DNA of 38,542 bases from NCBI GenBank assembly GCA_949285785.1, contig CASEAG010000003.1, positions 1 to 38,542 on the forward strand, in the 5' to 3' direction. This stretch comes from an uncultured Spirochaetales bacterium. Lineage in GTDB: Bacteria; Spirochaetota; Spirochaetia; Sphaerochaetales; Sphaerochaetaceae. Each line of letters opens with the position of its first letter. Within the stretch, counting starts at the first letter, position 1. The position numbers and the translations under genes are program-made. Positions 407 to 32,202 of this stretch are shown piece after piece. The notes beneath the pieces are model-generated. The model worked only from the letters and a program-made list of their open reading frames with translations. It made no database searches and was not told where the DNA came from.

Positions 407-1324
407 ATGCTCTGCGATTCCGTTCTGGATCTTGTCGGCGACACGCCATGCGTGAAGCTAAACCATATCGATACGAAAGGCGCCGAAGTGTACGTGAAGC
501 TCGAACGCTTCAACCCGCTTGGCTCTGCCAAGGACCGTGCCGCCCTCTACATGATAGAGGAGGCGGAGAGGCGTGGAGACCTCGTGCCAGGTTCGACCAT
601 CATCGAACCCACCAGCGGGAACACGGGAATCGCCCTTTCCTACATAGCGGCGGTGAAGGGCTACAGATGCATCATCGTCATGCCGGAGAGCATGAGCCGT
701 GAGAGAAGAGTCATGATGAAGGCGCTTGGCAGCGAGCTCGTGCTCACACCTGCCGCCGACGGCATGGCCGGTGCGATTGCCAGGGCCGGGCAGCTTGCAG
801 AGCAGACAGAGCGTTCCTTCATGCCGATGCAGTTCGAGAACCCGGACAACGCGCTTGCCCATTTCGAGACGACCGCCGTCGAGATCGAGAGGGACTTCGC
901 TGATCTTTCTCTGGACAAGTTCGTGGCAGGCGTCGGCAGCGGCGGCACGATATCTGGGGTGGCAAGACGTTTCAGACGTGATGGATTCCGTGCCAGAATC
1001 ATCGCGGTTGAGCCTGCCTCGTCGGCCGTGCTTTCAGGAGGGAAGGCGGGACGCCACCGGATCCAGGGGATAGGGGCGGGCTTCGTCCCGGGAAACTATG
1101 ATCCCGTGCTTGTCGACGAAGTCGTCGCGGTGAGTGATGAAGAGGCCTTCGAATATACTAGACAGCTTGCGAGGAAGGAGGGCATCTTCTGCGGCATCTC
1201 GTCCGGAGCTGCCCTTGCCGGTGCCATCCGTGGTGCAGCGAAGGGAGAGAGGATACTCGTCCTGCTGCCGGATGCGGGAGAGCGCTATCTGTCAGAGGCC
1301 TTCTGGGAAGAGGACGGGGTCTGA
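407..1324 (+). CDS. cysK: Cysteine synthase (O-acetylserine sulfhydrylase), PLP-dependent
   Basis: This 305-residue protein is a fold-type II PLP enzyme that makes L-cysteine from O-acetylserine and sulfide in the cytoplasm. The PLP lysine is K42 in GSAKDRA (family usually SVKDR). The substrate loop PTSGNTG is at 68-74 and a glycine-rich phosphate-binding GSGGT motif lies near 175. The length is usual for CysK/CysM. The start is set by AGGAGG about ten bases upstream of ATG 407. No cysE or sulfate-assimilation gene is adjacent, so it may work with a distant serine acetyltransferase. The 3' end overlaps the convergent HAD gene by 33 bases. CysK versus CysM cannot be separated by eye. Confidence 0.9.
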   Translation: MLCDSVLDLVGDTPCVKLNHIDTKGAEVYVKLERFNPLGSAKDRAALYMIEEAERRGDLVPGSTIIEPTSGNTGIALSYIAAVKGYRCIIVMPESMSRERRVMMKALGSELVLTPAADGMAGAIARAGQLAEQTERSFMPMQFENPDNALAHFETTAVEIERDFADLSLDKFVAGVGSGGTISGVARRFRRDGFRARIIAVEPASSAVLSGGKAGRHRIQGIGAGFVPGNYDPVLVDEVVAVSDEEAFEYTRQLARKEGIFCGISSGAALAGAIRGAAKGERILVLLPDAGERYLSEAFWEEDGV

Positions 1325-2044
1325 AGCCAGGTCGCCGACCTTGTCATAGACGACGTCGGCGTACTTCTCGAGCACCTCGCGTTTTCCATAGCCTGTCATG
1401 ACGGCTATCGTGTAGCCGACTCTGCCGGCCTTCGCGTATTCCATGTCCACGATCGAGTCGCCGACGATGGCGATCTTCATCGGGTCGATTCCGAAGAGCG
1501 TCGAGAACTGCCTGATGGACTCGTCGCTGGGCTTCCTGCGGCAGTTCGACTCCTTTGTGCGCAGGAAGCGTACATACCTGTCTATGCCCATGACCTCGAG
1601 GAACGCCTTGGTGTTCGCGGTGATGTCGTTGGTCACAAGACCTATCATGATCCCCTTGTCCATCAGCGACTGCATAAGCCGCTGCAGGGCGGTGAAGTCC
1701 ATGCTGCCTAGCTTGTCCAGCACCTTGCGGTTCTGGCTGTTGAGGAACTTCGTGAGCATCTGGTACATCTTCAGCGGGCTTATGTGGTTGCGAATGCAGA
1801 AGCCGAGGATCTTGAAGAAGATGCTGACTATCTTGTCATGGTTGAAGAGGAAGCCGTCGGGGTAGTTGTTGCCCTTGTCGTCGACGCCGACGATCTCGTA
1901 GATCCTCTGGCGCGCCTCGTCCTCGTTCTTCACGCTGAACGTCATGAGAATCGTATCCGTGTACTGGCGTATGACAGGGCCCCACACTTCGGCGTAGTTG
2001 AAGAGCGTTCCGTCCTTGTCGAATATGATTCCGCGGATATCCAT
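1292..2044 (-). CDS. HAD-superfamily phosphatase (phosphoglycolate phosphatase-like)
   Basis: The 250-residue product starts MDIRGIIFDKDGTLFNY, the HAD motif I with nucleophile D9 and acid/base D11. Motif II is the Thr in GLVTNDITAN, and motif III/IV is GDSIVDMEYAKAGR near the C terminus, with a helical cap between them. This is the Gph/PPase-like branch of soluble HAD phosphatases; the substrate cannot be told from sequence. The ATG at 2044 was chosen although the frame stays open to 2182, because HAD motif I normally sits within the first 15 residues. No clear Shine-Dalgarno is visible. It is divergent from the uracil-DNA glycosylase gene and runs 33 bases into the cysK 3' end. Confidence 0.8.
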   Translation of the reverse strand: MDIRGIIFDKDGTLFNYAEVWGPVIRQYTDTILMTFSVKNEDEARQRIYEIVGVDDKGNNYPDGFLFNHDKIVSIFFKILGFCIRNHISPLKMYQMLTKFLNSQNRKVLDKLGSMDFTALQRLMQSLMDKGIMIGLVTNDITANTKAFLEVMGIDRYVRFLRTKESNCRRKPSDESIRQFSTLFGIDPMKIAIVGDSIVDMEYAKAGRVGYTIAVMTGYGKREVLEKYADVVYDKVGDLASDPVLFPEGL

Positions 2045-2057
2045 GGCTTGAACAGAG

Positions 2058-2086
2058 TACACTGATCGGGCTTCTTGTGCTATAGT
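2058..2086 (+). promoter_or_regulatory. Extended -10 promoter giving a probable leaderless transcript
   Basis: TGCTATAGT (extended -10, hexamer 2081-2086) follows a weak -35 TACACT (2058-2063) with a 17-base spacer. The hexamer ends seven bases before ATG 2094, so transcription should start at or next to the ATG; there is no Shine-Dalgarno. Confidence 0.5.
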
Positions 2087-2093
2087 CTGACAC

Positions 2094-2819
2094 ATGCTGG
2101 ACAGCCTGTTCATCTCTAGGACGGATGCCTTCAGAAGGGAGGTCTCGAAGCTGGAGTTCACATTCGACGGCGTGGTGTACAACCCGCTCGACTACGCCTG
2201 GGACATGTTCCTCCGATACGAGGATCTTGCCCTGTCCGGTGACAACGGCGTCATGTTCATGGGTATGAACCCCGGACCTGACGGCATGATGCAGACCGGC
2301 GTCCCGTTCGGTGCGCGCAGCATCGTGAAAGACTATCTCGGACTTTCCGGAACCGTATCGCAGCCGGAGCATCTGCATCCGGCAAGGCCTGTCACGGGGC
2401 TGGAAGGCAGGAAGGACGAGCCCAGTGGCATGGCCTTCTGGTCCATGATCCGAAGCATCTATCCCGACTGTCACGACTTCTTCTCCTTCGCCACGGTCCA
2501 GAACTTCTGTCCGCTGGCCTTCGTCACGGGAGACAGGGGGCGGAACGTCACGCCGGACAAGCTGCCGAGGCAGGAGAGACGGGCTCTCGAGGAGGTGTGT
2601 CTGGACTATCTGGAGTTCCTCGTCGCCCATCTTCACGTCAGGACCGCCGTCGCAGTCGGCAACTACGCCTATGACCAGCTGACGAAGGTCGGATGCGGAC
2701 GTGTACTGAAGATACTCCATCCTTCTCCGATAAACCCCGCCGCACATCGCGTCTGGGCCGATGACGGCCGCCAGGTGGCCGAATACCTTGTCTCGGAGGG
2801 CGTCCTTGACCACTGTTGA
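2094..2819 (+). CDS. SMUG1-type single-strand-selective uracil-DNA glycosylase
   Basis: The 241-residue protein removes uracil (and in this family often hydroxymethyluracil or formyluracil) from DNA as the first step of base-excision repair. The SMUG1 signature GMNPGPDGMMQTGVPFG spans 57-73 and holds the catalytic Asn of GMNP; the second family motif HPSPINP begins at 209 and contributes the DNA-intercalating loop. These two motifs distinguish it from UNG (GQDPYH) and from family 4 Fe-S enzymes. Bacterial SMUG1 proteins are less common than UNG. There is no Shine-Dalgarno before ATG 2094. The gene overlaps the start of ispE by 14 bases, so the two are probably cotranscribed. Confidence 0.9.
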   Translation: MLDSLFISRTDAFRREVSKLEFTFDGVVYNPLDYAWDMFLRYEDLALSGDNGVMFMGMNPGPDGMMQTGVPFGARSIVKDYLGLSGTVSQPEHLHPARPVTGLEGRKDEPSGMAFWSMIRSIYPDCHDFFSFATVQNFCPLAFVTGDRGRNVTPDKLPRQERRALEEVCLDYLEFLVAHLHVRTAVAVGNYAYDQLTKVGCGRVLKILHPSPINPAAHRVWADDGRQVAEYLVSEGVLDHC

Positions 2820-6809: not shown

Positions 6810-8849
6810 ATGGACGAACATAGAGACGACGAAAAGAAGGACTATATAGACGGGAACAGGCCGTCCGGGACACCTGATGAAGGCCAGAGCGGCGGCGGTG
6901 ATGAAAAGGGCAGGGAGCCGTCCGGACATAAGCCTGACAAGGAAAAGGACAAGGACAGGAAGAAGGCCAACGTATACGACCAGTACAGATACTGGGGCTC
7001 TGACAACAAGGGCGGGGACTCGAAGCTGAAGATGAACGGACGCAACCGCTTCACGCTCTTCATCTTCCTCGCGCTGATCATCTCGTTCGCCTTCCTGTTC
7101 TTCAACCAAAGCGGCTCACAGCGGGCTACGGAGGTGACGTACTCCGCGTTCCTCACCGCGCTGGAGAGCGGCTCGGTCACGCAGGTGGACATCCAGGACG
7201 AGAGCATCATCGATTTCGTGACCACCAACGGCTTCTATGGAAGTGCGAGGATCCCGTACTACGACTCGACGCTTCTGGACAGCCTGACGCAGCATGGCGT
7301 CGAGATCGTGGGCTCGGTTGCAGGAGTGTCCTTCTGGGTGCTTTTGATCAACCTGCTGCCCTGGATCATATTCTTCGTGATCATGTTCTCCATGTACCGC
7401 CAGGTCGGTGCGGCCGGTGGCAACAGGATGATGGGACAGTTCGGCAAGAGCCATGCCCAGCAGTACACCCCCAAGGAGAACAAGGTCCTTTTCAAGGACG
7501 TCGCAGGCCAGAAGGAGAGCAAGTACGAGCTCCAGGAGGTCGTCGACTTTCTCAAGAATCCCCAGCGTTACGTCGAGATAGGTGCGAAGATCCCCAAGGG
7601 CGTCCTGCTCGTGGGTCCTCCGGGAACAGGAAAGACCCTGCTTGCCAGGGCGGTCGCAGGGGAGGCCGGCGTCAACTTCTTCCACACCTCCGGTTCGGAC
7701 TTCGTCGAGATGTTCGTCGGCATGGGCGCGGCACGTGTCCGCGACCTGTTCGAGACCGGTAGGAAGAACGCACCCTGCATCATATTCATCGACGAGATCG
7801 ACGCCGTGGGCCGTAGCCGCGGTTCCGGACTTGGCGGAGGCCATGACGAGAGGGAGCAGACACTGAACCAGATTCTCGTCGAGATGGACGGCTTCTCCAC
7901 GGATCCGGGTGTCATCGTCATCGCTGCGACGAACCGTCCCGACGTCCTCGATCCGGCCCTGCTTAGACCCGGCCGCTTCGACAGACAGGTCGCCGTCGAC
8001 CTTCCGGACGTGCAGGAGAGGCTCGACATCCTCCGCATCCACAGCGCCAAGGTCAAGTGCGCCGAGGACGTGGACCTGGAGAGGGTAGCCCGTGCAACAC
8101 CCGGTTCATCCGGTGCGGACCTCGCCAACCTCGTCAACGAGGCGGCGCTGTACGCCGCAAGGAGCAACCGCAAGCAGGTTGTCATGGACGACTTCGAGCA
8201 GGCCCGGGACAAGATCATTCTCGGAGTCGCCCGCCAGAGCAGGTTCATGACCGAAGAGGAGAAGAGGGCGACGGCATACCACGAGGCCGGCCATACGCTG
8301 CTCCACTACTATCTCGAGCATGTCGATCCTCTGCACAAGGTCACGATCATTCCGCACGGACAGGCGCTTGGACTCACCATCTCGCTTCCCGAGAAAGACC
8401 AGTACACGCTTCGCGAGAGTTATCTGAAGGACAGGATCGTCATCTGCATGGGAGGTTACGTCGCCGAGGACATCGTCTATGGCGAGACAACCACAGGCAC
8501 GTCCAACGACATCAAGCAGGCAACCGGAATGGCACGCCGCATGGTGACGGAGTGGGGCATGAGCGCACTGGGCTTCATCAACCTCTCCAATGAGGGCGAG
8601 CCGCTGTTCCTGGGCCGTGAGATAACACAGCACAAGGACTTCTCCGACGATACCGCCCGCAGGATCGACGAGGAGGTCGAGAAGATTCTCGACGAATGTC
8701 TTGAGAAGACCAGGAGCATCCTCACCGAGCACCGCGACCAGCTGGACAGGCTGACCGACGAGCTTTGCAGGAAGGAGACGCTGGACGACGCCGAGATCAG
8801 ACAGCTTCTCGGCTTCGAGCCCGAGCATCACGTATCGGAGCTGCACTGA
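6810..8849 (+). CDS. ftsH: ATP-dependent zinc metalloprotease FtsH, with a long charged N-terminal extension
   Basis: FtsH is a membrane-anchored AAA+ protease that degrades unassembled membrane proteins and short-lived regulators. The 679-residue sequence shows a membrane segment near 80-98 ([18 protein letters not shown]), a periplasmic region, and a second membrane segment near 170-192. The AAA module follows, with Walker A GPPGTGKT at 269-276, Walker [12 protein letters not shown] and the pore FVEMFVG. The zinc site HEAGH is at 491-495. Residues 1-75 are very hydrophilic, rich in Asp, Lys and Gly, and not part of the standard E. coli architecture. GGGA sits six bases before the ATG. The stop overlaps lepA by one base. 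Confidence 0.95.
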
Positions 8850-12711: not shown

Positions 12712-12740
12712 TTGTCCACTGCCCTCGTCGGTTCTAGAAT
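12712..12740 (+). promoter_or_regulatory. Promoter placed for a leaderless S41 peptidase mRNA
   Basis: TTGTCC (12712-12717), an exact 17-base spacer and TAGAAT (12735-12740). The hexamer ends seven bases before ATG 12748 and no Shine-Dalgarno is present, so the transcript should begin at the start codon. The -35 starts two bases after the corA stop. Confidence 0.55.
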
Positions 12741-12747
12741 GGGAACC

Positions 12748-13968
12748 ATGAAGAGACCGCTTTCCATCGTACTGCTTCTCGTCGTGATCCTGTCATTCCC
12801 CTCCTGTGCCACCGCATGGAAGGTCGCTGACAGGCCATGGAGCGAGGATGCCATGTATCTGTATCTCAGCCTGAAGACGGGTCATGCGGATTTCTTCAAC
12901 GGCGTCGACGAGGATGAAGCCGACGGATACGTCGAATCGGTGGTCGAGGACATCGACCGAATGGATGCGCCGCAGGCGTATTATGCTCTGCTGTCCATCG
13001 CCGCACTTGCACACGACTCGCACACCAGCGTCGGCATGGATACGGCACTCCTGTCATGCTTCGACTTCCTGCCCGTCGTCTTCGATGTATTCGACGACGA
13101 TCTCGTCATCGTCAGCGCCACGACCGGATACGACCATCTGGTGGGATGCACCGTCAGGACCGTATGCGGCCATACGCTCGACCAGATCATCGACGCCGCC
13201 AAGCCCCTGATTCCTCATGACAACGACGTGTTCCTGCTGTCGCAGCTGAAGGACATGCATATGCTCCTCAGACAGTTCTACGAGGTCGCAGGGCTGCTTG
13301 AAGAAGGTGAGGACTTCGTCCTGGAGCTGGATGACGGACGTCTCTTCGTCCTCGATGCCATGGGCTATGAAGAGTACGCTTCATCCGGGCGGACGAATCT
13401 GATGCAGCGTCTTCCCGATACGCTGAACACGGCCTCGTATTACAATGCGATGTACCTGCCACACGAGAGCGCGCTGCTGATCAACTACCTGTCATGCACC
13501 CAGATGCCCTCCTTCCCGTTCTCCGACTTCGCCAAGGCATGCATCGACCTCATAGAGGAAAGAGGCCATGAGAAGGTCATAATAGACCTGCGGTACAACA
13601 GCGGTGGCGACAGCTCCATAATCGAGCCTCTCGTGGACGGACTGGTGGAGATCCGCCAGGAGCGTCCGCTCTCCGTATACGTCCTCATCGGCGAGGACAC
13701 CTTCTCGTCGGCGATCCTGAACGCGATCGAGCTGAAGGACAGGCTGGATGCCGTCCTCGTCGGACGACCGACAGGTGGAAGCGCCAGCCACTATGGAGAG
13801 CTCGGTCGTAATGTGCTTCCCAATTCGCGTCTTGTCTTCACCTGGTCGACGAAATGGTTCGACAACGGACTTGCCGGTCCTCTCATGCCGGACATCCCGG
13901 TGGAGAGGAGCATGGCCGACTACCGCGACGGCATCGACAGCGACCTTGCCGCCCTGGGGGTGCTGTGA
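12748..13968 (+). CDS. Lipoprotein, S41-family (C-terminal processing peptidase-like) protease
   Basis: The 406-residue protein begins with a lipoprotein signal: Lys2-Arg3, a hydrophobic core and lipobox FPSC with Cys20. The C-terminal half is an S41 core: VIIDLRYNSGGDSS, then GEDTFSSAILNAIELK with the likely nucleophile Ser, then VGRPTGGSASHYGE. No PDZ domain is obvious, which places it with the PDZ-less S41 proteins rather than classical CtpA. It probably cleaves peptides or wall-associated proteins in the periplasm. ATG 12748 is the last start before the signal sequence. The next gene follows at once, suggesting an operon. Confidence 0.82.
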   Translation: MKRPLSIVLLLVVILSFPSCATAWKVADRPWSEDAMYLYLSLKTGHADFFNGVDEDEADGYVESVVEDIDRMDAPQAYYALLSIAALAHDSHTSVGMDTALLSCFDFLPVVFDVFDDDLVIVSATTGYDHLVGCTVRTVCGHTLDQIIDAAKPLIPHDNDVFLLSQLKDMHMLLRQFYEVAGLLEEGEDFVLELDDGRLFVLDAMGYEEYASSGRTNLMQRLPDTLNTASYYNAMYLPHESALLINYLSCTQMPSFPFSDFAKACIDLIEERGHEKVIIDLRYNSGGDSSIIEPLVDGLVEIRQERPLSVYVLIGEDTFSSAILNAIELKDRLDAVLVGRPTGGSASHYGELGRNVLPNSRLVFTWSTKWFDNGLAGPLMPDIPVERSMADYRDGIDSDLAALGVL

Positions 13969-22299: not shown

Positions 22300-23904
22300 A
22301 TGTGCGAACCACAACTGGATGATACACTCGGAGACGTTCTTGAGCAAGAGTATTTCCCCTTCATGTACGACAGGCGGCTGAAGCTCACCGCACAGGAGAA
22401 GGCGCTCAAGGTGCTGTTCGACGGGCTTGACTACAGCCTGTTCGACGCCTCGCTGTCAAGGGATGCGAAGATACCTCCCCGCAGGATGTGCCTTGCAATC
22501 ATCTACGCCTTCATGAACGGCGTGTACACCTACAGGCCCATGGAGACGTTCTTCCAGAGGAACGCATTCGTCATCTCGCTGTTCGGTCTTGATGCGAGCG
22601 TGGACCATTCGACCATCAGCCGCTTCTTCACGAGGAACCTGGAAGCCTTCCATGGTCTTTTCTACCAGCTGGTCGTCAGGCTTGATGAGCAGGGGGAGCT
22701 TGGCAGGCGTACGGTCTTCCAGGACGGAACGAAGGTCGAGTCAAGAGCGGGCAGGTATACGTTCGAATGGAGGAGCGCATTGGAGAGGAACAGCGACAGA
22801 TGCATCAGGAGGATGGTCGCTCTGCTGCAGATTGCCAAGGGGATGAAGCTCATCGACGATGATGTCGAGATAGGAGAGGACAATGCGGTGTCTCTTCTCC
22901 AGGGGCTTCTCGAGACCCTGTCCATGATGGATCTCGAGCGGGATGCACCACGAGGCAGGGGGCACCGGCTCGACAAGGTGGTGAAGCTGGAGGAGAGGGC
23001 AAAGGAGGAGATGGCGAAGCTGGTCGGGATGGACAATGCCATCGCCGGCATCGGCGACGGGAGGAGGAGCTGGTCGAAGACCGACAACGATGCGACCTTC
23101 ATGAGGATGAAGGACGACCGCATGAGGAACGGGCAGCTCAAGCCGGCCTACAACATCCAGAACGCGGTCGATTCCGGCTATGTCATCGCATGCATCGCCA
23201 GCAGTGACCGCAACGACTACGACACCATGGAGCCGATGCTCAGGGAGATCGAGGAGAACCTCCCATGGTCGTATCCCCAGTACTGTGCAGACAGCGGATA
23301 CGACAGCCTCGGGAACCATGTGCTCCTCGAGCAGAAGGGGATCGAGGACTTCATCAAGCCCCAGGACTGGGAGATCGGAATGAGGAGGCAGTACATCAAC
23401 GACATCGGCCGCTACCAGAACATGAAGTACGATGAACGGAAGGACGAATTCACATGTGCAAACGGCAGGAGACTGGTCTTCGTCAAGGCCACGGACAACA
23501 GGGAGCACGGCACCGTCTCAAGACACTATGCATGCAGGCGGGGATGCGTCACATGTCCGCTTCGCAGGCAGTGCATGAAGACGAGCAGGAAGAAGTACAA
23601 GGAGTTCTCCGTCGTCATGGAGCACTGGCAGTACAACAAGGGCTGCCACGAGAGGCTCAGGTCGGACAGGGGCATCGAGGTGAGGCTGAACCGCTCGATC
23701 ATGGTCGAGGGCAGTTTCGCCCAGATGAAGAGCAACATGGGATTCGACCGCTTCAGGCACTTCTCGCAGAAGAAGATACTGACCATCTGGATGCTGCTTG
23801 CGATGGCGATGAACACTCTCCACTTCGCATCCAGACGCTTTGGACAGACCGTCTCCATTTCTCCACAATGGTTCTCCCCTCCGCCGGAAGACGCCTCGGC
23901 CTGA
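22300..23904 (+). CDS. IS1182-family transposase
   Basis: The 534-residue protein has the IS1182 layout: an N-terminal DUF772-type domain (ISRFFTRNLEAF), then the DDE nuclease with D in FQDGTKVES, D in YCADSGYDS and E in MVEGSFAQMKSNMGF. A Cys-rich insertion (ACRRGCVTCPLRRQC) precedes the last motif. The frame is intact with all three acidic residues, so the enzyme may be active. AGGAGG lies eight bases before ATG 22300. Base composition is like the chromosome, so the element is at home in this genus or long resident. Confidence 0.93.
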   Translation: MCEPQLDDTLGDVLEQEYFPFMYDRRLKLTAQEKALKVLFDGLDYSLFDASLSRDAKIPPRRMCLAIIYAFMNGVYTYRPMETFFQRNAFVISLFGLDASVDHSTISRFFTRNLEAFHGLFYQLVVRLDEQGELGRRTVFQDGTKVESRAGRYTFEWRSALERNSDRCIRRMVALLQIAKGMKLIDDDVEIGEDNAVSLLQGLLETLSMMDLERDAPRGRGHRLDKVVKLEERAKEEMAKLVGMDNAIAGIGDGRRSWSKTDNDATFMRMKDDRMRNGQLKPAYNIQNAVDSGYVIACIASSDRNDYDTMEPMLREIEENLPWSYPQYCADSGYDSLGNHVLLEQKGIEDFIKPQDWEIGMRRQYINDIGRYQNMKYDERKDEFTCANGRRLVFVKATDNREHGTVSRHYACRRGCVTCPLRRQCMKTSRKKYKEFSVVMEHWQYNKGCHERLRSDRGIEVRLNRSIMVEGSFAQMKSNMGFDRFRHFSQKKILTIWMLLAMAMNTLHFASRRFGQTVSISPQWFSPPPEDASA

Positions 23905-24131: not shown

Positions 24132-26183
24132 TCAGATCTTCATCGCGACCTCGTATGCCCGCCAAATGACGGAGCGGAGGTTGCCGACCTTCAGGCAGTC
24201 CCCGACGAGGTGTACCCTGCCGGAGCCCTTCGTCAGCGGGGTGGGGACGTATCCTACGCTGCTGATCACGCTGTCGCATGGGATGTCGACGGAGCTTCCA
24301 TCCTTGATGCGGATTGTGACCGAGCCGTCTTCGACCTTCTCCAATGTCGATTCCAGATGCACCTTCGTCCCGTTGAGCGCGAACCACTCCCTGAGGTAGG
24401 AACTGTTGGCCAGGCACACTCCCTTCTGGCTGATGAGGTCGTCCTTCATCTCGACTATCGTGACATCCTTGCCCTGCAGAGCAAGCTCGTAGGCGACCTC
24501 GCAGCCGGTCAGGCCTCCGCCGACCACGACGACACGTTCGCCCACAGGCGTGCCGGTGAGGTAGTCGCAGGCCTCGATCGTCTTGTCGAAGCCGGGAACG
24601 GGAAGAGCTCTGGCCTTTGCCCCCGTGGCTATGACGACCTCATCCTCCTTCAATGAGGATGTGTCCTTGACTTCGCTCGAGAGCCTCACGTCGACACCGA
24701 GCCTGTCCATCTGCCTGACATACCATGCAAGCAGGTCCCTCAGCTTGCCCTTGTAGGACTCCGCGCTTGCGGCGATGAATGTTCCGCCGAGCCTGTCAGC
24801 CTTCTCATATATGACCGGCCTGTGTCCGCGCAGTGCAAGCACCCTGGCACACTCCATGCCTCCGATTCCGCCGCCGACGATGGCCACGGTCTTCGGCCTG
24901 GCGGTCTTCACTATCCTGTGCTTCTTCCACTGCATGGTCTCTGCGTTGACCGCACAGCGTGCCAGATGGAGGCTGTCCATGAGGCCCTGGTCGTTTGGTA
25001 CGCCCTTGTAATGGCACATGTTGAAGCAGCCGTTGTGGCAAAGGATGCACGGGCGGATATCCTCCTCGTGTCCCTCCATGAGCTTCGTGACCCAGCTCTG
25101 GTCTGCGAGGAACTGGCGGGCGAAGCCTGCACCGTCAAGTCTTCCGGCCGCGATCTCGTTTGCAGCGACATACGGATCCAGGCGTCCTGCGGCGACCACC
25201 GGGATGTCGACGAACTTCCTGATGTGCTCCACATCCTCCAGGTTGCAGTTCTCGGGCATGTAGATTGGCGGGTGGGCCCAGTACCAGGCGTCGTATGTTC
25301 CGTTGTCGCAGTTGAGCATGTCGTAGCCGGCGTCCTGGAGCAGCTTCGCCGCCTTCTCGGACTCGGCCATGTCGCGTCCGACCTCGACGTAGTCCTCGCC
25401 GGGAAGGGCGCCCTGTCTCATGCCCTTCGTCTTCGACACCACACTGTAGCGCAGCGAGACCGGGTAGTCGTCTCCGCAGGCCTTCTTGATGGCCTGGACG
25501 ATCTCGACGGCGAAGCGGTAGCGGTTCTCCATGCTGCCGCCGTATTCGTCGCTGCGCCTGTTGACGTAGGGCAACGTGAACTGGTCGAGAAGGTAGCCTT
25601 CATGCACCGCGTGGATCTCGACGCCGTCGACACCGGCGTCCTGGAGCATCTTCGAGCTGAGGGCGAACGACTCTACCATCTGGCGTATCTCGTCCTTCGT
25701 CATCTCGCGGGAGGGCACCTTCTCGGACCAGCGGTTGGGTGAGGGGCTGGCCGATGCCGTGATCCTGTCCAGGTCCATCACGGGTTTGGAGAGGGTTCTG
25801 ATGACGGGTGTGGTGTACAGCATCTCCATCATGCTGCTGATCGTGAAGGAACGGCCGAAGCCTGCGGTGAGCTGCACGAAGAGCTTGGCTCCCGTCTGAT
25901 GGAAGGACGGCATCCACGCCGCAAGGTCGCGGTACATCTTCCTGTTCCTGTGCAGCCACTGGCCGAACATCGGGTTGTAAATCGGCTGACAGCCGGGAAG
26001 CACGAGCCCGACGTTGTTCTTCGCCACCTCCATGATGAAGCGTGCTCCATCCTTGTCGAAGTGGTTCTTCTCCATCCAGCCAAAGAGGTCGGTACCTCCC
26101 ATGCTGGTCATCACTATCCTGTTTCTGATTTCGCAGTTTCCGATCTTCCACGGCGTGAAGAGCGGTTCAAGTCTCTTGTCCAT
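24132..26183 (-). CDS. FMN/Fe-S/FAD oxidoreductase of the 2,4-dienoyl-CoA reductase/BaiCD type
   Basis: The 683-residue protein joins an old-yellow-enzyme TIM barrel (LEPLFTPWKIGNCEIRNRIVM; HAVHEGYLLDQF; RRSDEYGGSMENR) to a Fe-S linker (CILCHNGCFNMC) and a C-terminal FAD/NAD domain (VAIVGGGIGGMECARVLALRG; VVVVGGGLTGCEVAYELAL). This is the layout of FadH, trimethylamine dehydrogenase and BaiCD/BaiH, which reduce or oxidise enoyl-type substrates; the real substrate is not evident. The start at 26183 gives the conserved N terminus, with no Shine-Dalgarno; the frame continues to 26249. It is divergent from the codB-like operon. Confidence 0.85.
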   Translation of the reverse strand: MDKRLEPLFTPWKIGNCEIRNRIVMTSMGGTDLFGWMEKNHFDKDGARFIMEVAKNNVGLVLPGCQPIYNPMFGQWLHRNRKMYRDLAAWMPSFHQTGAKLFVQLTAGFGRSFTISSMMEMLYTTPVIRTLSKPVMDLDRITASASPSPNRWSEKVPSREMTKDEIRQMVESFALSSKMLQDAGVDGVEIHAVHEGYLLDQFTLPYVNRRSDEYGGSMENRYRFAVEIVQAIKKACGDDYPVSLRYSVVSKTKGMRQGALPGEDYVEVGRDMAESEKAAKLLQDAGYDMLNCDNGTYDAWYWAHPPIYMPENCNLEDVEHIRKFVDIPVVAAGRLDPYVAANEIAAGRLDGAGFARQFLADQSWVTKLMEGHEEDIRPCILCHNGCFNMCHYKGVPNDQGLMDSLHLARCAVNAETMQWKKHRIVKTARPKTVAIVGGGIGGMECARVLALRGHRPVIYEKADRLGGTFIAASAESYKGKLRDLLAWYVRQMDRLGVDVRLSSEVKDTSSLKEDEVVIATGAKARALPVPGFDKTIEACDYLTGTPVGERVVVVGGGLTGCEVAYELALQGKDVTIVEMKDDLISQKGVCLANSSYLREWFALNGTKVHLESTLEKVEDGSVTIRIKDGSSVDIPCDSVISSVGYVPTPLTKGSGRVHLVGDCLKVGNLRSVIWRAYEVAMKI

Positions 26184-26190
26184 GAGTGGA

Positions 26191-26219
26191 ATCTTAAACC
26201 ATGAGACGGAATAACGCAA
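26191..26219 (-). promoter_or_regulatory. Promoter placed for a leaderless oxidoreductase mRNA
   Basis: On the minus strand, TTGCGT (26214-26219), a 17-base spacer and TAAGAT (26191-26196). The hexamer ends seven bases before the ATG, with no Shine-Dalgarno between. Confidence 0.4.
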
Positions 26220-28677: not shown

Positions 28678-30227
28678 AATACAGAATGGGAATAGATGTA
28701 GGCGGCACAAACACCGATGCAGTGATTCTCGACGAGAAGCGCAATGTCGTGGCCGAGACCAAGGTCCCGACAAGCGGTGATGTATACACCGGCATAATGG
28801 AGGCCGTAAGGACGGTACTCAGACTCTCTGGAATCGATGCACTCGACGTGGACAAGGCCATGCTTGGAACGACCCAGTGCACTAATGCCATTGTTGAGAG
28901 AAAGAGCTTGGCCCAGGTTGCCCTGGTCAGACTTGGTGCTCCTGCGACCACCGGCATAGATCCGATGACGGACTGGCCTATGGAACTCAAACAGGTGTGC
29001 CGTCACTGGACGGTCATAGGCGGTGGCTACGAATACGACGGAAAGGTCCTAAGCGAACTTGATGAGGATGCACTCAGAGACTTTCTGGAATCCGTGAAAG
29101 GCAAGGTCGATGCACTTGCGGTCTCCGGCGTGTTCTCGACACTGCGCGACGACCAGGAGAAGAGGGTGAGGGAGATCGCCACCCAGGTGCTCGGGGTGGA
29201 TGTGCACATCTCGCTGTCGAGCGAGATCGGCTCTATGGGACTTGTCGAACGTGAGAACGCGACCATCCTCAACGCCGCTCTCCACAAGGTGGCGCGTGCC
29301 TTCACCCAGGGCTTTGCAAAGAGCCTGAAGGACGAAGGGCTCGAGAACGTGCGCCTGTATCTCTCACAGAACGATGGAACGCTCATGAGCATCGAAGACG
29401 CCCTCAGATGGCCGGTGCTTACAATAGCCTGCGGACCTACAAACAGCATAAGGGGCGCGAGCTATCTGTCGGACCTCCAGAACGCCATCATCGTGGACGT
29501 CGGAGGGACCACGACCGACATCGGTGCGCTCCAGAACGGCTTCCCGAGGGAAAGCGGAGTGGCTGTGACCATCGGAGGTGTGAGAACCAACTTCCGCATG
29601 CCGGACGTGATCTCGATAGGTCTTGGGGGTGGTAGCATCGTCCGCCGTCATGAGGATGGAAGCGTCACTGTCGGTCCTGACAGCGTCGGATACAGGATTA
29701 CATCGAAGGCGTTGGTGTTCGGTGGCGATACTCTCACGGCGACCGATATCGCCGTGTTCCTCGGCATGGCCGACGTCGGCGACAGGAGCCTGGTCGCTTC
29801 GCTGGACAGGCAGCTTGCCCTCGATGCAATGGATGTGATCAGAGAGATGATCGAGGATGCAATCGATTCCATGAAGCTCTCTGCCGATGATGTGGACGTG
29901 GTTCTGACAGGAGGTGGCTCGATCATCGTCCCGCAACGCATCGCGGGTGCACGCAAGGTCGTCATGCCTGCCCACTTCGGCTGTGCAAACGCCATAGGAA
30001 GCGCGATGAGCAAGGTCAGCGGCTATTACGAGAAGCTTGTCAGCTACGATGAGATCGAACGCGAGAAGGCGTTGCAACTGGCATCGAACGAGGCGATTCT
30101 CGAAGCGTCCCGCTCCGGCGCACTGATGGACAGCGTCGAGATAGTCGAGCTGGAGGACGTGCCTTTGCAGTATTATCCCGGCAATATGGTCCGGATCAGG
30201 ATAAAGGCGGCAGGGGAGTTAGTCTGA
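28674..30227 (+). CDS. Hydantoinase/oxoprolinase-family protein (HyuA-like)
   Basis: The 517-residue protein begins MKYRMGIDVGGTNTDAVIL, the phosphate-1 loop of the acetate/sugar-kinase-Hsp70-actin fold used by HyuA. It has the second nucleotide-binding block VDVGGTTTDIGALQNG and a C-terminal VVLTGGGSI. These enzymes open hydantoin or 5-oxoproline rings with ATP. It is the short HyuA type, with no HyuB gene nearby, as is common in DUF917-linked clusters. ATG 28674 is preferred (GAGGAGAGG eight bases upstream); GTG 28665 is also in frame. The end overlaps the convergent pucR-like gene by nine bases. Confidence 0.87.
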   Translation: MKYRMGIDVGGTNTDAVILDEKRNVVAETKVPTSGDVYTGIMEAVRTVLRLSGIDALDVDKAMLGTTQCTNAIVERKSLAQVALVRLGAPATTGIDPMTDWPMELKQVCRHWTVIGGGYEYDGKVLSELDEDALRDFLESVKGKVDALAVSGVFSTLRDDQEKRVREIATQVLGVDVHISLSSEIGSMGLVERENATILNAALHKVARAFTQGFAKSLKDEGLENVRLYLSQNDGTLMSIEDALRWPVLTIACGPTNSIRGASYLSDLQNAIIVDVGGTTTDIGALQNGFPRESGVAVTIGGVRTNFRMPDVISIGLGGGSIVRRHEDGSVTVGPDSVGYRITSKALVFGGDTLTATDIAVFLGMADVGDRSLVASLDRQLALDAMDVIREMIEDAIDSMKLSADDVDVVLTGGGSIIVPQRIAGARKVVMPAHFGCANAIGSAMSKVSGYYEKLVSYDEIEREKALQLASNEAILEASRSGALMDSVEIVELEDVPLQYYPGNMVRIRIKAAGELV

Positions 30228-31751
30228 CTGCAGTCTCAGAATCCTCGTAAGCATGAGGGCCCTGTAGAGCAGAACGCTCAGCGGGGCCCTCGTCACGTCA
30301 TCGCCCAGCAGATTCGAGATTCTCCTTATGCGGTACTTCACCGTGTTGTTGTGGACATCGAGGATCTTTGATGTCTGCAGTGTGCTCATGCCTGCATCCA
30401 GAGCCCAGACCTCCAGAGTCCTGACAAGGTCCTCGTGGTCGCTCTGTCTTGTCAGAGGATCGAGAAGCGATAGGATGTCCCTGATCTCGTCCTCTCCTTT
30501 CCCGATCGCCTTCATGCAGTAGTCGATCATCCTGATGTGTGCATGTGACAGGACATCCCGAGCGAATGTCAGATGGGCCGGCATCGCCGATGCAGAGGCC
30601 TCGAGATAGGCTCTCCTCACATCTCCGGTGTCTTTCAGATTGTAGATCGTGACGAGGATGCGGTCATCGCCAGTCAGAGCATCGGCGATCGCCTGTATTA
30701 TGTCCGGGCCCATCGACGAGGCGAGGAAGAGGACGACGTAGTCCTCGTACTCGTCCATCACAGGTCTCGTGACGAATGCGGAGATCCTGGACATGGAATC
30801 GTCCAGAATGTTCACTCCCGCCTTCTTCGGTCTGACCATGAACATCGTGTCCAGACTCCCGACATCTATGCTGAACAGGTCCGCCAGCCGTCTCATCTTC
30901 AGGCTCTCGTCCTGGAGTATGGCCTTCACCAGCTGGCTTATCACGGCCTTGCCATGGTCGGGCGACCATATCGCGAGAAACAGATGCACCGTCTCGCGCA
31001 CGGTCTCCACCTGTTCATCTGAAAGAGGAATCCCGTTCTCCCTCAGCATGGTCAGGACTAGTTTGCCTCTGGTCGGGGACTCGAGGAATGTGCGCCTGAT
31101 GGCCCATGCGTGGTCGAGCGAACCGTTCTCGAACATGGTCCTTACATCATCTTCCCTGCCATGTGGATATGTGGAGATGTTCAGGACTCTGCCATCGCGG
31201 TCGCCCAGGATGAATCCTGCCCTGAGCCGGTCACGTAACATCTTCAGCACAGTCGTGACAGTCCTCTCGTCTGAGCGAAGGCGGCTCATCTCCTCGAGGA
31301 TCTCGACGATAAGCCCGTCCTGCCGTTCCTCCTTCATGATCGCCTCGCTGATGTCGCTGATTGCATCGCTGTAGCGCAGATACTTCAGGCTTGGCATCCT
31401 GATCATCGCAAAGTCATTCTCGTCGGCAAGCCTGATCAGCCTCTGGTCTATTTCCGGCATCAAAATGCCTACGTAGTACAGTATCAGTCCGACCTCTCCA
31501 GCCTTGATGAGCCGCTGGACGGCCTTGATCTGCGCGTCAGGGTCGTCGGCGATCGATGCGAATGCGGTTATGACGATCTCGTTTCCTTCGAAGCTTATAG
31601 CCTCGAACAGGGCGTTCTGGACATCATCCGGATTCGAGTATTCCAGTACGGAGACGGATGAGACGGTCCTGTCAAGCGCGCCGGCTCCAGCGACGAGTTC
31701 GGCACCTCTCATCGATGGAAGTTCCAGTATTTTTTTTATCGATAGGCTCAT
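30219..31751 (-). CDS. PucR-family transcriptional regulator
   Basis: The 510-residue protein has an N-terminal PucR domain (IKKILELPSMRGAELVAGAGALDRTVSSVSVLEY), a GGDEF-like/GAF-type middle and the C-terminal PucR helix-turn-helix (ALDAGMSTLQTSKILDVHNNTVKYRIRRI). PucR proteins usually activate purine, allantoin or other N-heterocycle catabolism genes on effector binding. It faces the permease-DUF917-hydantoinase operon, which it likely controls. The start at 31751 has no Shine-Dalgarno and may be leaderless. Confidence 0.87.
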   Translation of the reverse strand: MSLSIKKILELPSMRGAELVAGAGALDRTVSSVSVLEYSNPDDVQNALFEAISFEGNEIVITAFASIADDPDAQIKAVQRLIKAGEVGLILYYVGILMPEIDQRLIRLADENDFAMIRMPSLKYLRYSDAISDISEAIMKEERQDGLIVEILEEMSRLRSDERTVTTVLKMLRDRLRAGFILGDRDGRVLNISTYPHGREDDVRTMFENGSLDHAWAIRRTFLESPTRGKLVLTMLRENGIPLSDEQVETVRETVHLFLAIWSPDHGKAVISQLVKAILQDESLKMRRLADLFSIDVGSLDTMFMVRPKKAGVNILDDSMSRISAFVTRPVMDEYEDYVVLFLASSMGPDIIQAIADALTGDDRILVTIYNLKDTGDVRRAYLEASASAMPAHLTFARDVLSHAHIRMIDYCMKAIGKGEDEIRDILSLLDPLTRQSDHEDLVRTLEVWALDAGMSTLQTSKILDVHNNTVKYRIRRISNLLGDDVTRAPLSVLLYRALMLTRILRLQSD

Positions 31752-31757
31752 GGAAAA

Positions 31758-31786
31758 ATTCTAATCCAATCATGCAATTGAATGAA
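31758..31786 (-). promoter_or_regulatory. Promoter placed for a leaderless pucR-like mRNA
   Basis: On the minus strand, TTCATT (31781-31786), a 17-base spacer and TAGAAT (31758-31763). The hexamer ends six bases before the ATG at 31751. Confidence 0.42.
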
Positions 31787-31842: not shown

Positions 31843-31872
31843 TGCACATTTGTTTTCTGCGCATGCTACAAT
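31843..31872 (+). promoter_or_regulatory. Extended -10 promoter for a leaderless TIGR04076-like gene
   Basis: TGCACA (31843-31848), an 18-base spacer and TACAAT (31867-31872) preceded by TGC as an extended -10. The hexamer ends six bases before ATG 31879, and no Shine-Dalgarno is present. Confidence 0.5.
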
Positions 31873-31878
31873 GTCTTC

Positions 31879-32202
31879 ATGTACAAGGTAGGAATCAAGG
31901 TGATCCGTGTCGATCACCACCAGGATCTTGCAATGGAATACCTGTCCGATGGAGACACAGTCGGTCCATGCCCTATGCATTCTGTTGGCGATGTCTTCAT
32001 ATACACCGGAGACAATGAGAAGCCCGAGGGGTTGTGCCCTGCCGCCTGGCTTGATATCTGCCGTGCCGTTACGGCGATTTCGAATGGAGCATCGTACACT
32101 CCATGGAACAGGAGGGAGGGACAGACCATAGGATGCTGCGGTGACGGCATCCGTCCCGTTTCGTTCGAAATCACCAGAATCGATGATGATTTCTCCTCAT
32201 GA
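31879..32202 (+). CDS. TIGR04076-family small protein of unknown function
   Basis: The 107-residue protein MYKVGIKVIRVDHHQDLAME shows the family landmarks: PCPMHSVGDVF, the KPEGLCPAAWLDICRAV segment and the C-terminal GCCGDGIRPVSFEITRI. Members are small Cys-containing proteins of unknown role, sometimes near redox or flavin genes. ATG 31879 fits the family N terminus; the frame is open upstream to 31798, but that stretch is the promoter. It is followed after 22 bases by a hydrolase gene and is divergent from pucR. Confidence 0.72.
   Translation: MYKVGIKVIRVDHHQDLAMEYLSDGDTVGPCPMHSVGDVFIYTGDNEKPEGLCPAAWLDICRAVTAISNGASYTPWNRREGQTIGCCGDGIRPVSFEITRIDDDFSS

Follow-up and report, generated by a model that had tools for sequence, protein, structure and literature searches.

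Five genes in a 38,542-nucleotide stretch of DNA from an uncultured Spirochaetales bacterium (contig CASEAG010000003.1; hereafter, the window), together with a larger set of genes in the same genome, appear to carry sigma-70-type promoters that are fused to the start codon and would give rise to leaderless mRNAs. We put the probability of this reading at about 0.93. Following established knowledge of leaderless mRNAs, RNA polymerase would read a -10 element of the form TANNNT, in many cases preceded by TG and by a weak -35 element at 17 to 18 bp, and the usual distance from the -10 element to the start would make the A of the start codon the first transcribed base, so that the 5' end of the mRNA would be the AUG itself. 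The ribosome would bind this 5' AUG directly and translate without Shine-Dalgarno (SD) pairing, and such genes would coexist with a larger SD-led set.

Predicted promoters and start codons of the five window genes

As the initial annotation described, each of the five candidate leaderless genes has a -10 hexamer that ends 6 or 7 bases upstream of its ATG, and none of the five has an SD match of at least 4 bases at a spacing of 4 to 12 bases from the start, which is the SD criterion used here. The SMUG1-like gene of the uracil-DNA glycosylase superfamily (2094 to 2819, plus strand; PF03167) is preceded by TATAGT (2081 to 2086, plus strand), located 7 bases before ATG 2094 and extended by an upstream TGC. 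The S41-type peptidase gene (12748 to 13968, plus strand; Pfam PF03572), whose product has a lipoprotein-like signal sequence, carries TAGAAT (12735 to 12740, plus strand) 7 bases before ATG 12748. On the minus strand, TAAGAT (26191 to 26196) is found 7 bases before ATG 26183 of an old-yellow-enzyme/FMN and pyridine-nucleotide oxidoreductase gene (24132 to 26183; PF00724 and PF07992), and TAGAAT (31758 to 31763) is found 6 bases before ATG 31751 of a gene for a PucR-family regulator (30219 to 31751; PF07905 and PF13556). The gene for a TIGR04076 family protein (31879 to 32202, plus strand; NCBIfam TIGR04076, 85.4 bits) has TACAAT (31867 to 31872, plus strand), again an extended -10 element with TGC, 6 bases before ATG 31879.

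A -35-like hexamer at 17 to 18 bases had been proposed for each of the five, and this holds for some of them. TTGTCC of the S41 gene (12712 to 12717, plus strand; 17-bp spacer) and TGCACA of the TIGR04076 gene (18-bp spacer) each agree with TTGACA at four of six positions, whereas the hexamers of the SMUG1-like, oxidoreductase, and pucR genes are weak, with three of six, and unremarkable singly. The window has 28 further called genes, of which 17 have an SD match of at least 4 bases and 11 have one of at least 5 bases, so the earlier description of most of them as having AGGAGG-type sites is roughly right. The transposase gene at 22300 to 23904 (PF13751, PF01609, and PF05598) has a clear AGGAGG site.

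The S41 gene follows a CorA gene on the same strand at a distance of 38 bp and is thus no obvious first gene of a transcript. A second ATG, at 12739, overlaps the -10 box of the S41 gene; position 12748 is favored as the start because, in comparison with G011, a near relative of the window genome, the sequence between the two ATGs has differences that would change amino acids. Transcription of this gene would accordingly be expected to begin at the A of ATG 12748.

Distribution of the hexamer upstream of start codons

The assembly from which the window is taken comprises 2.05 Mb in 40 contigs, and a 625-kb sample, approximately 30% of the genome, was used for the spacing analysis. In this sample, 530 genes were called, with starts chosen solely from the codon score and the type of start codon, and the upstream bases of 529 of them were profiled for TANNNT at spacings of 0 to 59. 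The 306 genes that are first of their transcript include 165 SD-less genes and 141 with an SD site, and leaderless-type sites were selected by TANNNT and spacing alone, with dinucleotide shuffles of the upstream regions giving the chance level at 6 to 7 bases before the start.

A genome scan against shuffled upstream regions, as the initial annotation had proposed, is strongly positive. TANNNT occurs 6 to 7 bases before the start of 51 of the 306 first genes in the sample, compared with 7.2 ± 2.6 in the shuffles, so that approximately 7 of the 51 sites are chance matches. The excess is almost confined to SD-less genes (48 of 165, versus 3 of 141 with an SD site), in which 18 matches fall at spacing 6 and 30 at spacing 7, with mostly about 2 at each of the other spacings and 0 to 4 at each of the distant ones. 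No peak at 6 to 7 was found among the 141 SD-bearing first genes of the sample. The expectation that leaderless initiation would belong mainly to first genes is supported as well, since genes closely behind a same-strand gene have the hexamer at this position in only 7 of 223 cases.

Five examples picked by eye from approximately 33 genes might simply be chance matches, given that TANNNT is a loose motif, found by chance in approximately 2.4% of first genes in each shuffle. About one match would be expected in the window, however, and five were found; the excess holds elsewhere in the genome as well, and diverged orthologues retain the register (see below). We consider chance matching scarcely credible.

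If other ATGs close by that have a pyrimidine at -1 are also admitted, 66 of the 529 genes match at 6 to 7, versus 7 to 16 at spacings of 10 or more, which corresponds to approximately 10% of genes at 6 to 7 and slightly more with neighboring spacings. Genome-wide, TANNNT is about twofold more frequent than background at spacings of 8 to 9. Over the whole genome, TANAAT-N5,6-YATG is present 66 times, versus 17 times with 10 bases of extra spacing and 5 times when reversed. Judged from these counts, the leaderless share of the genes of this spirochaete is probably approximately 10 to 12%, mostly first genes of transcripts.

Sequence features around the start codon

Several features that played no part in the selection are those of a promoter. 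A C or T occupies position -1 in 50 of the 51 leaderless-type genes, compared with 58% of the other first genes, and the start codon is ATG in 49 of the 51. A pyrimidine at -1 is as expected if the A of the start codon is the transcription start, with a pyrimidine at -1 and a purine at +1. TG one base 5' of the -10 hexamer, i.e., an extended -10 element, and TT at the -35 position are both enriched in the leaderless-type set, and a -35 hexamer with at least four of six matches to TTGACA at 16 to 18 bp is found in 20 of 48 leaderless-type genes, versus 6.0 in shuffles. By Pfam, no functional theme is evident in the leaderless set, which alone was scanned; nearly all of the 124 families found in its 65 proteins are singletons.

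An upstream AT-rich bias of SD-less genes is known from several bacterial groups, in which it has been ascribed to leaderless promoters or to S1 sites (PMC5397173). The hexamers could thus be AT-rich ribosome-binding features, such as U-rich or S1 sites, on mRNAs with ordinary leaders, and not promoters at all. A spaced hexamer with a peak only two bases wide, a -35 element at 17 to 18 bp, the TG, and C or T at -1 are nevertheless what a promoter, rather than a diffuse U-rich tract, would show, and we regard the ribosome-binding explanation as very improbable.

The promoters could also be real while translation begins at a downstream, SD-led, in-frame codon, in which case the mRNAs would have short leaders and the starts would be misassigned. 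Codon-score start calls can err singly, and other ATGs were in fact called for two of the five window genes, although such gene-calling errors work against the signal. Downstream in-frame SD-led starts are no more frequent in the leaderless class (2 of 48) than in the SD genes used as a control (6 of 102), which indicates that the leaderless-type ATGs are not simply miscalled upstream of SD-led ones. In addition, the orthologues of both the PucR regulator and the oxidoreductase align from the same first residue. Misassigned starts are therefore a highly unlikely explanation of the set, and initiation at the promoter-fused ATG remains the preferred reading.

Conservation of the register in orthologues

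Orthologues of the five window genes were drawn from both the genus and the family. Within the genus, 24 of the 36 orthologues keep the register, i.e., TANNNT 6 to 7 bases before the corresponding start, compared with a mean of 1.7 and a maximum of 7 in shuffles; these counts leave out the genome itself and G011, and the 36 orthologues are not independent because the species are related. The last 50 upstream bases of the genus orthologues are 12 to 56% identical to those of this genome, which means that the register persists despite divergence of the surrounding sequence. Together with the excess at 6 to 7 bases, this conservation supports the earlier suggestion that the lineage uses leaderless initiation for a subset of its genes. 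Upstream regions of leaderless genes were also profiled position by position for conservation against G011, but only four pairs could be used, too few for the profile to be retained.

Conservation differs among the five genes. The pucR register is kept in all seven genus orthologues examined from other species and also in G020, outside the genus, and that of the SMUG1-like gene is kept in seven of eight. The oxidoreductase orthologues are of the leaderless type in G001, G008, G009, and G012 and of the SD type in G002, G005, and G010, and the TIGR04076 register is present in G001, G002, G005, and G012, with an SD-type orthologue in G009. For the S41 gene, the orthologues of nine other genus species comprise two of the leaderless type, six of the SD type, and one of neither type; the evidence that this gene is leaderless therefore comes from this genome, G011, and the two diverged orthologues of G005 and G007, in all of which the -10 register is found. 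An SD site is present in 10 of the 12 orthologues that have no leaderless register, which suggests that the leaderless and SD modes replace one another. At some SMUG1-like or TIGR04076 orthologue loci (L126, L127, and L166 to L168, in G004, G015, G012, G001, and G009), one in-frame stop or split matches were reported in the reading frame.

Divergent gene pairs and candidate near-leaderless starts

The SMUG1-like gene is divergent from a gene for a HAD-family hydrolase (1292 to 2044, minus strand), with 49 bp between the two starts and -10-like boxes on both sides. The box of the HAD gene, TACTCT, lies 9 bases before its ATG, which makes it a candidate near-leaderless gene. This arrangement is found in all 10 genus members examined, with 45 to 50 bp between the starts, and the HAD box, as read by eye, lies 6 or 9 bases before the start in genus members. 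In the sample of the genome itself (L002 to L036), 7 of 82 divergent pairs have -10-like boxes 5 to 9 bases before both SD-less starts; all seven have less than 200 bp between the starts, and six have less than 130 bp. Elsewhere in the window, TAATCT ends 9 bases before the ATG of an ftsH-like gene at 6810, which has no SD match of at least 4 bases, and this is possibly another near-leaderless start.

Occurrence in other genomes and relation to known systems

The ratio of the whole-genome pattern to its shifted control is 1.59 in the genus (16 genomes) and 1.34 in the family (21 genomes), and it is weakly raised, to 1.14, in the rest of the class (24 genomes). A clear excess in single genomes is seen in G008, G024, G028, and G047, among others. 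Many AT-rich genomes have no excess of the pattern at this sensitivity; pattern counts in such genomes have a high background, and they may still contain leaderless genes. For G011, 400 kb was sampled, and 23 of its 178 first genes match, versus 4.0 in shuffles; the counts in 100-kb samples of other genomes are suggestive yet small.

TANNNT approximately 12 bp upstream is a known mark of leaderless genes in many bacteria (Zheng et al. 2011, PMC3160421), and the motif, its position, and its association with SD-less genes are alike here. In that study, leaderless genes were predicted in 6 of 18 spirochaete genomes, at a mean of 3.9% of genes (range, 1.8 to 6.9%); the share of approximately 10 to 12% estimated here lies above this range, although the methods differ. 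The lineage of this genome does not appear to be named in that study. In Deinococcus-Thermus, which is another phylum, a -10 region adjacent to the open reading frame, as here, gives leaderless mRNA and has been functionally tested (PMC12340547), and the leaderless share is approximately 39% of genes (PMC3160421). A literature search found no paper joining "leaderless" and "Sphaerochaeta".

Leptospira belongs to the same phylum but is only distantly related. In Leptospira interrogans, likewise a spirochaete, dRNA-seq mapped the start of transcription precisely onto the start codon of 170 to 184 genes (PMC5243855); the leaderless starts are experimental there and sequence based here. Since the mechanism is published, has been predicted in spirochaetes, and has been mapped in Leptospira, the present case extends a known kind of initiation, with good support, to a new lineage.

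For the family as a whole, leaderless initiation is likely to be a standing second mode that serves at least one-tenth of the genes, with genes switching between leaderless and SD-led states within the genus and back-to-back leaderless promoters filling divergent spacers of approximately 50 bp. The finding adds a lineage with a sizeable leaderless set to a phylum for which published in silico estimates are low, and it helps start-codon annotation in the spirochaete phylum. A genus in which the same genes appear to switch between leaderless and SD-led initiation would be useful for studying the evolution of initiation modes.
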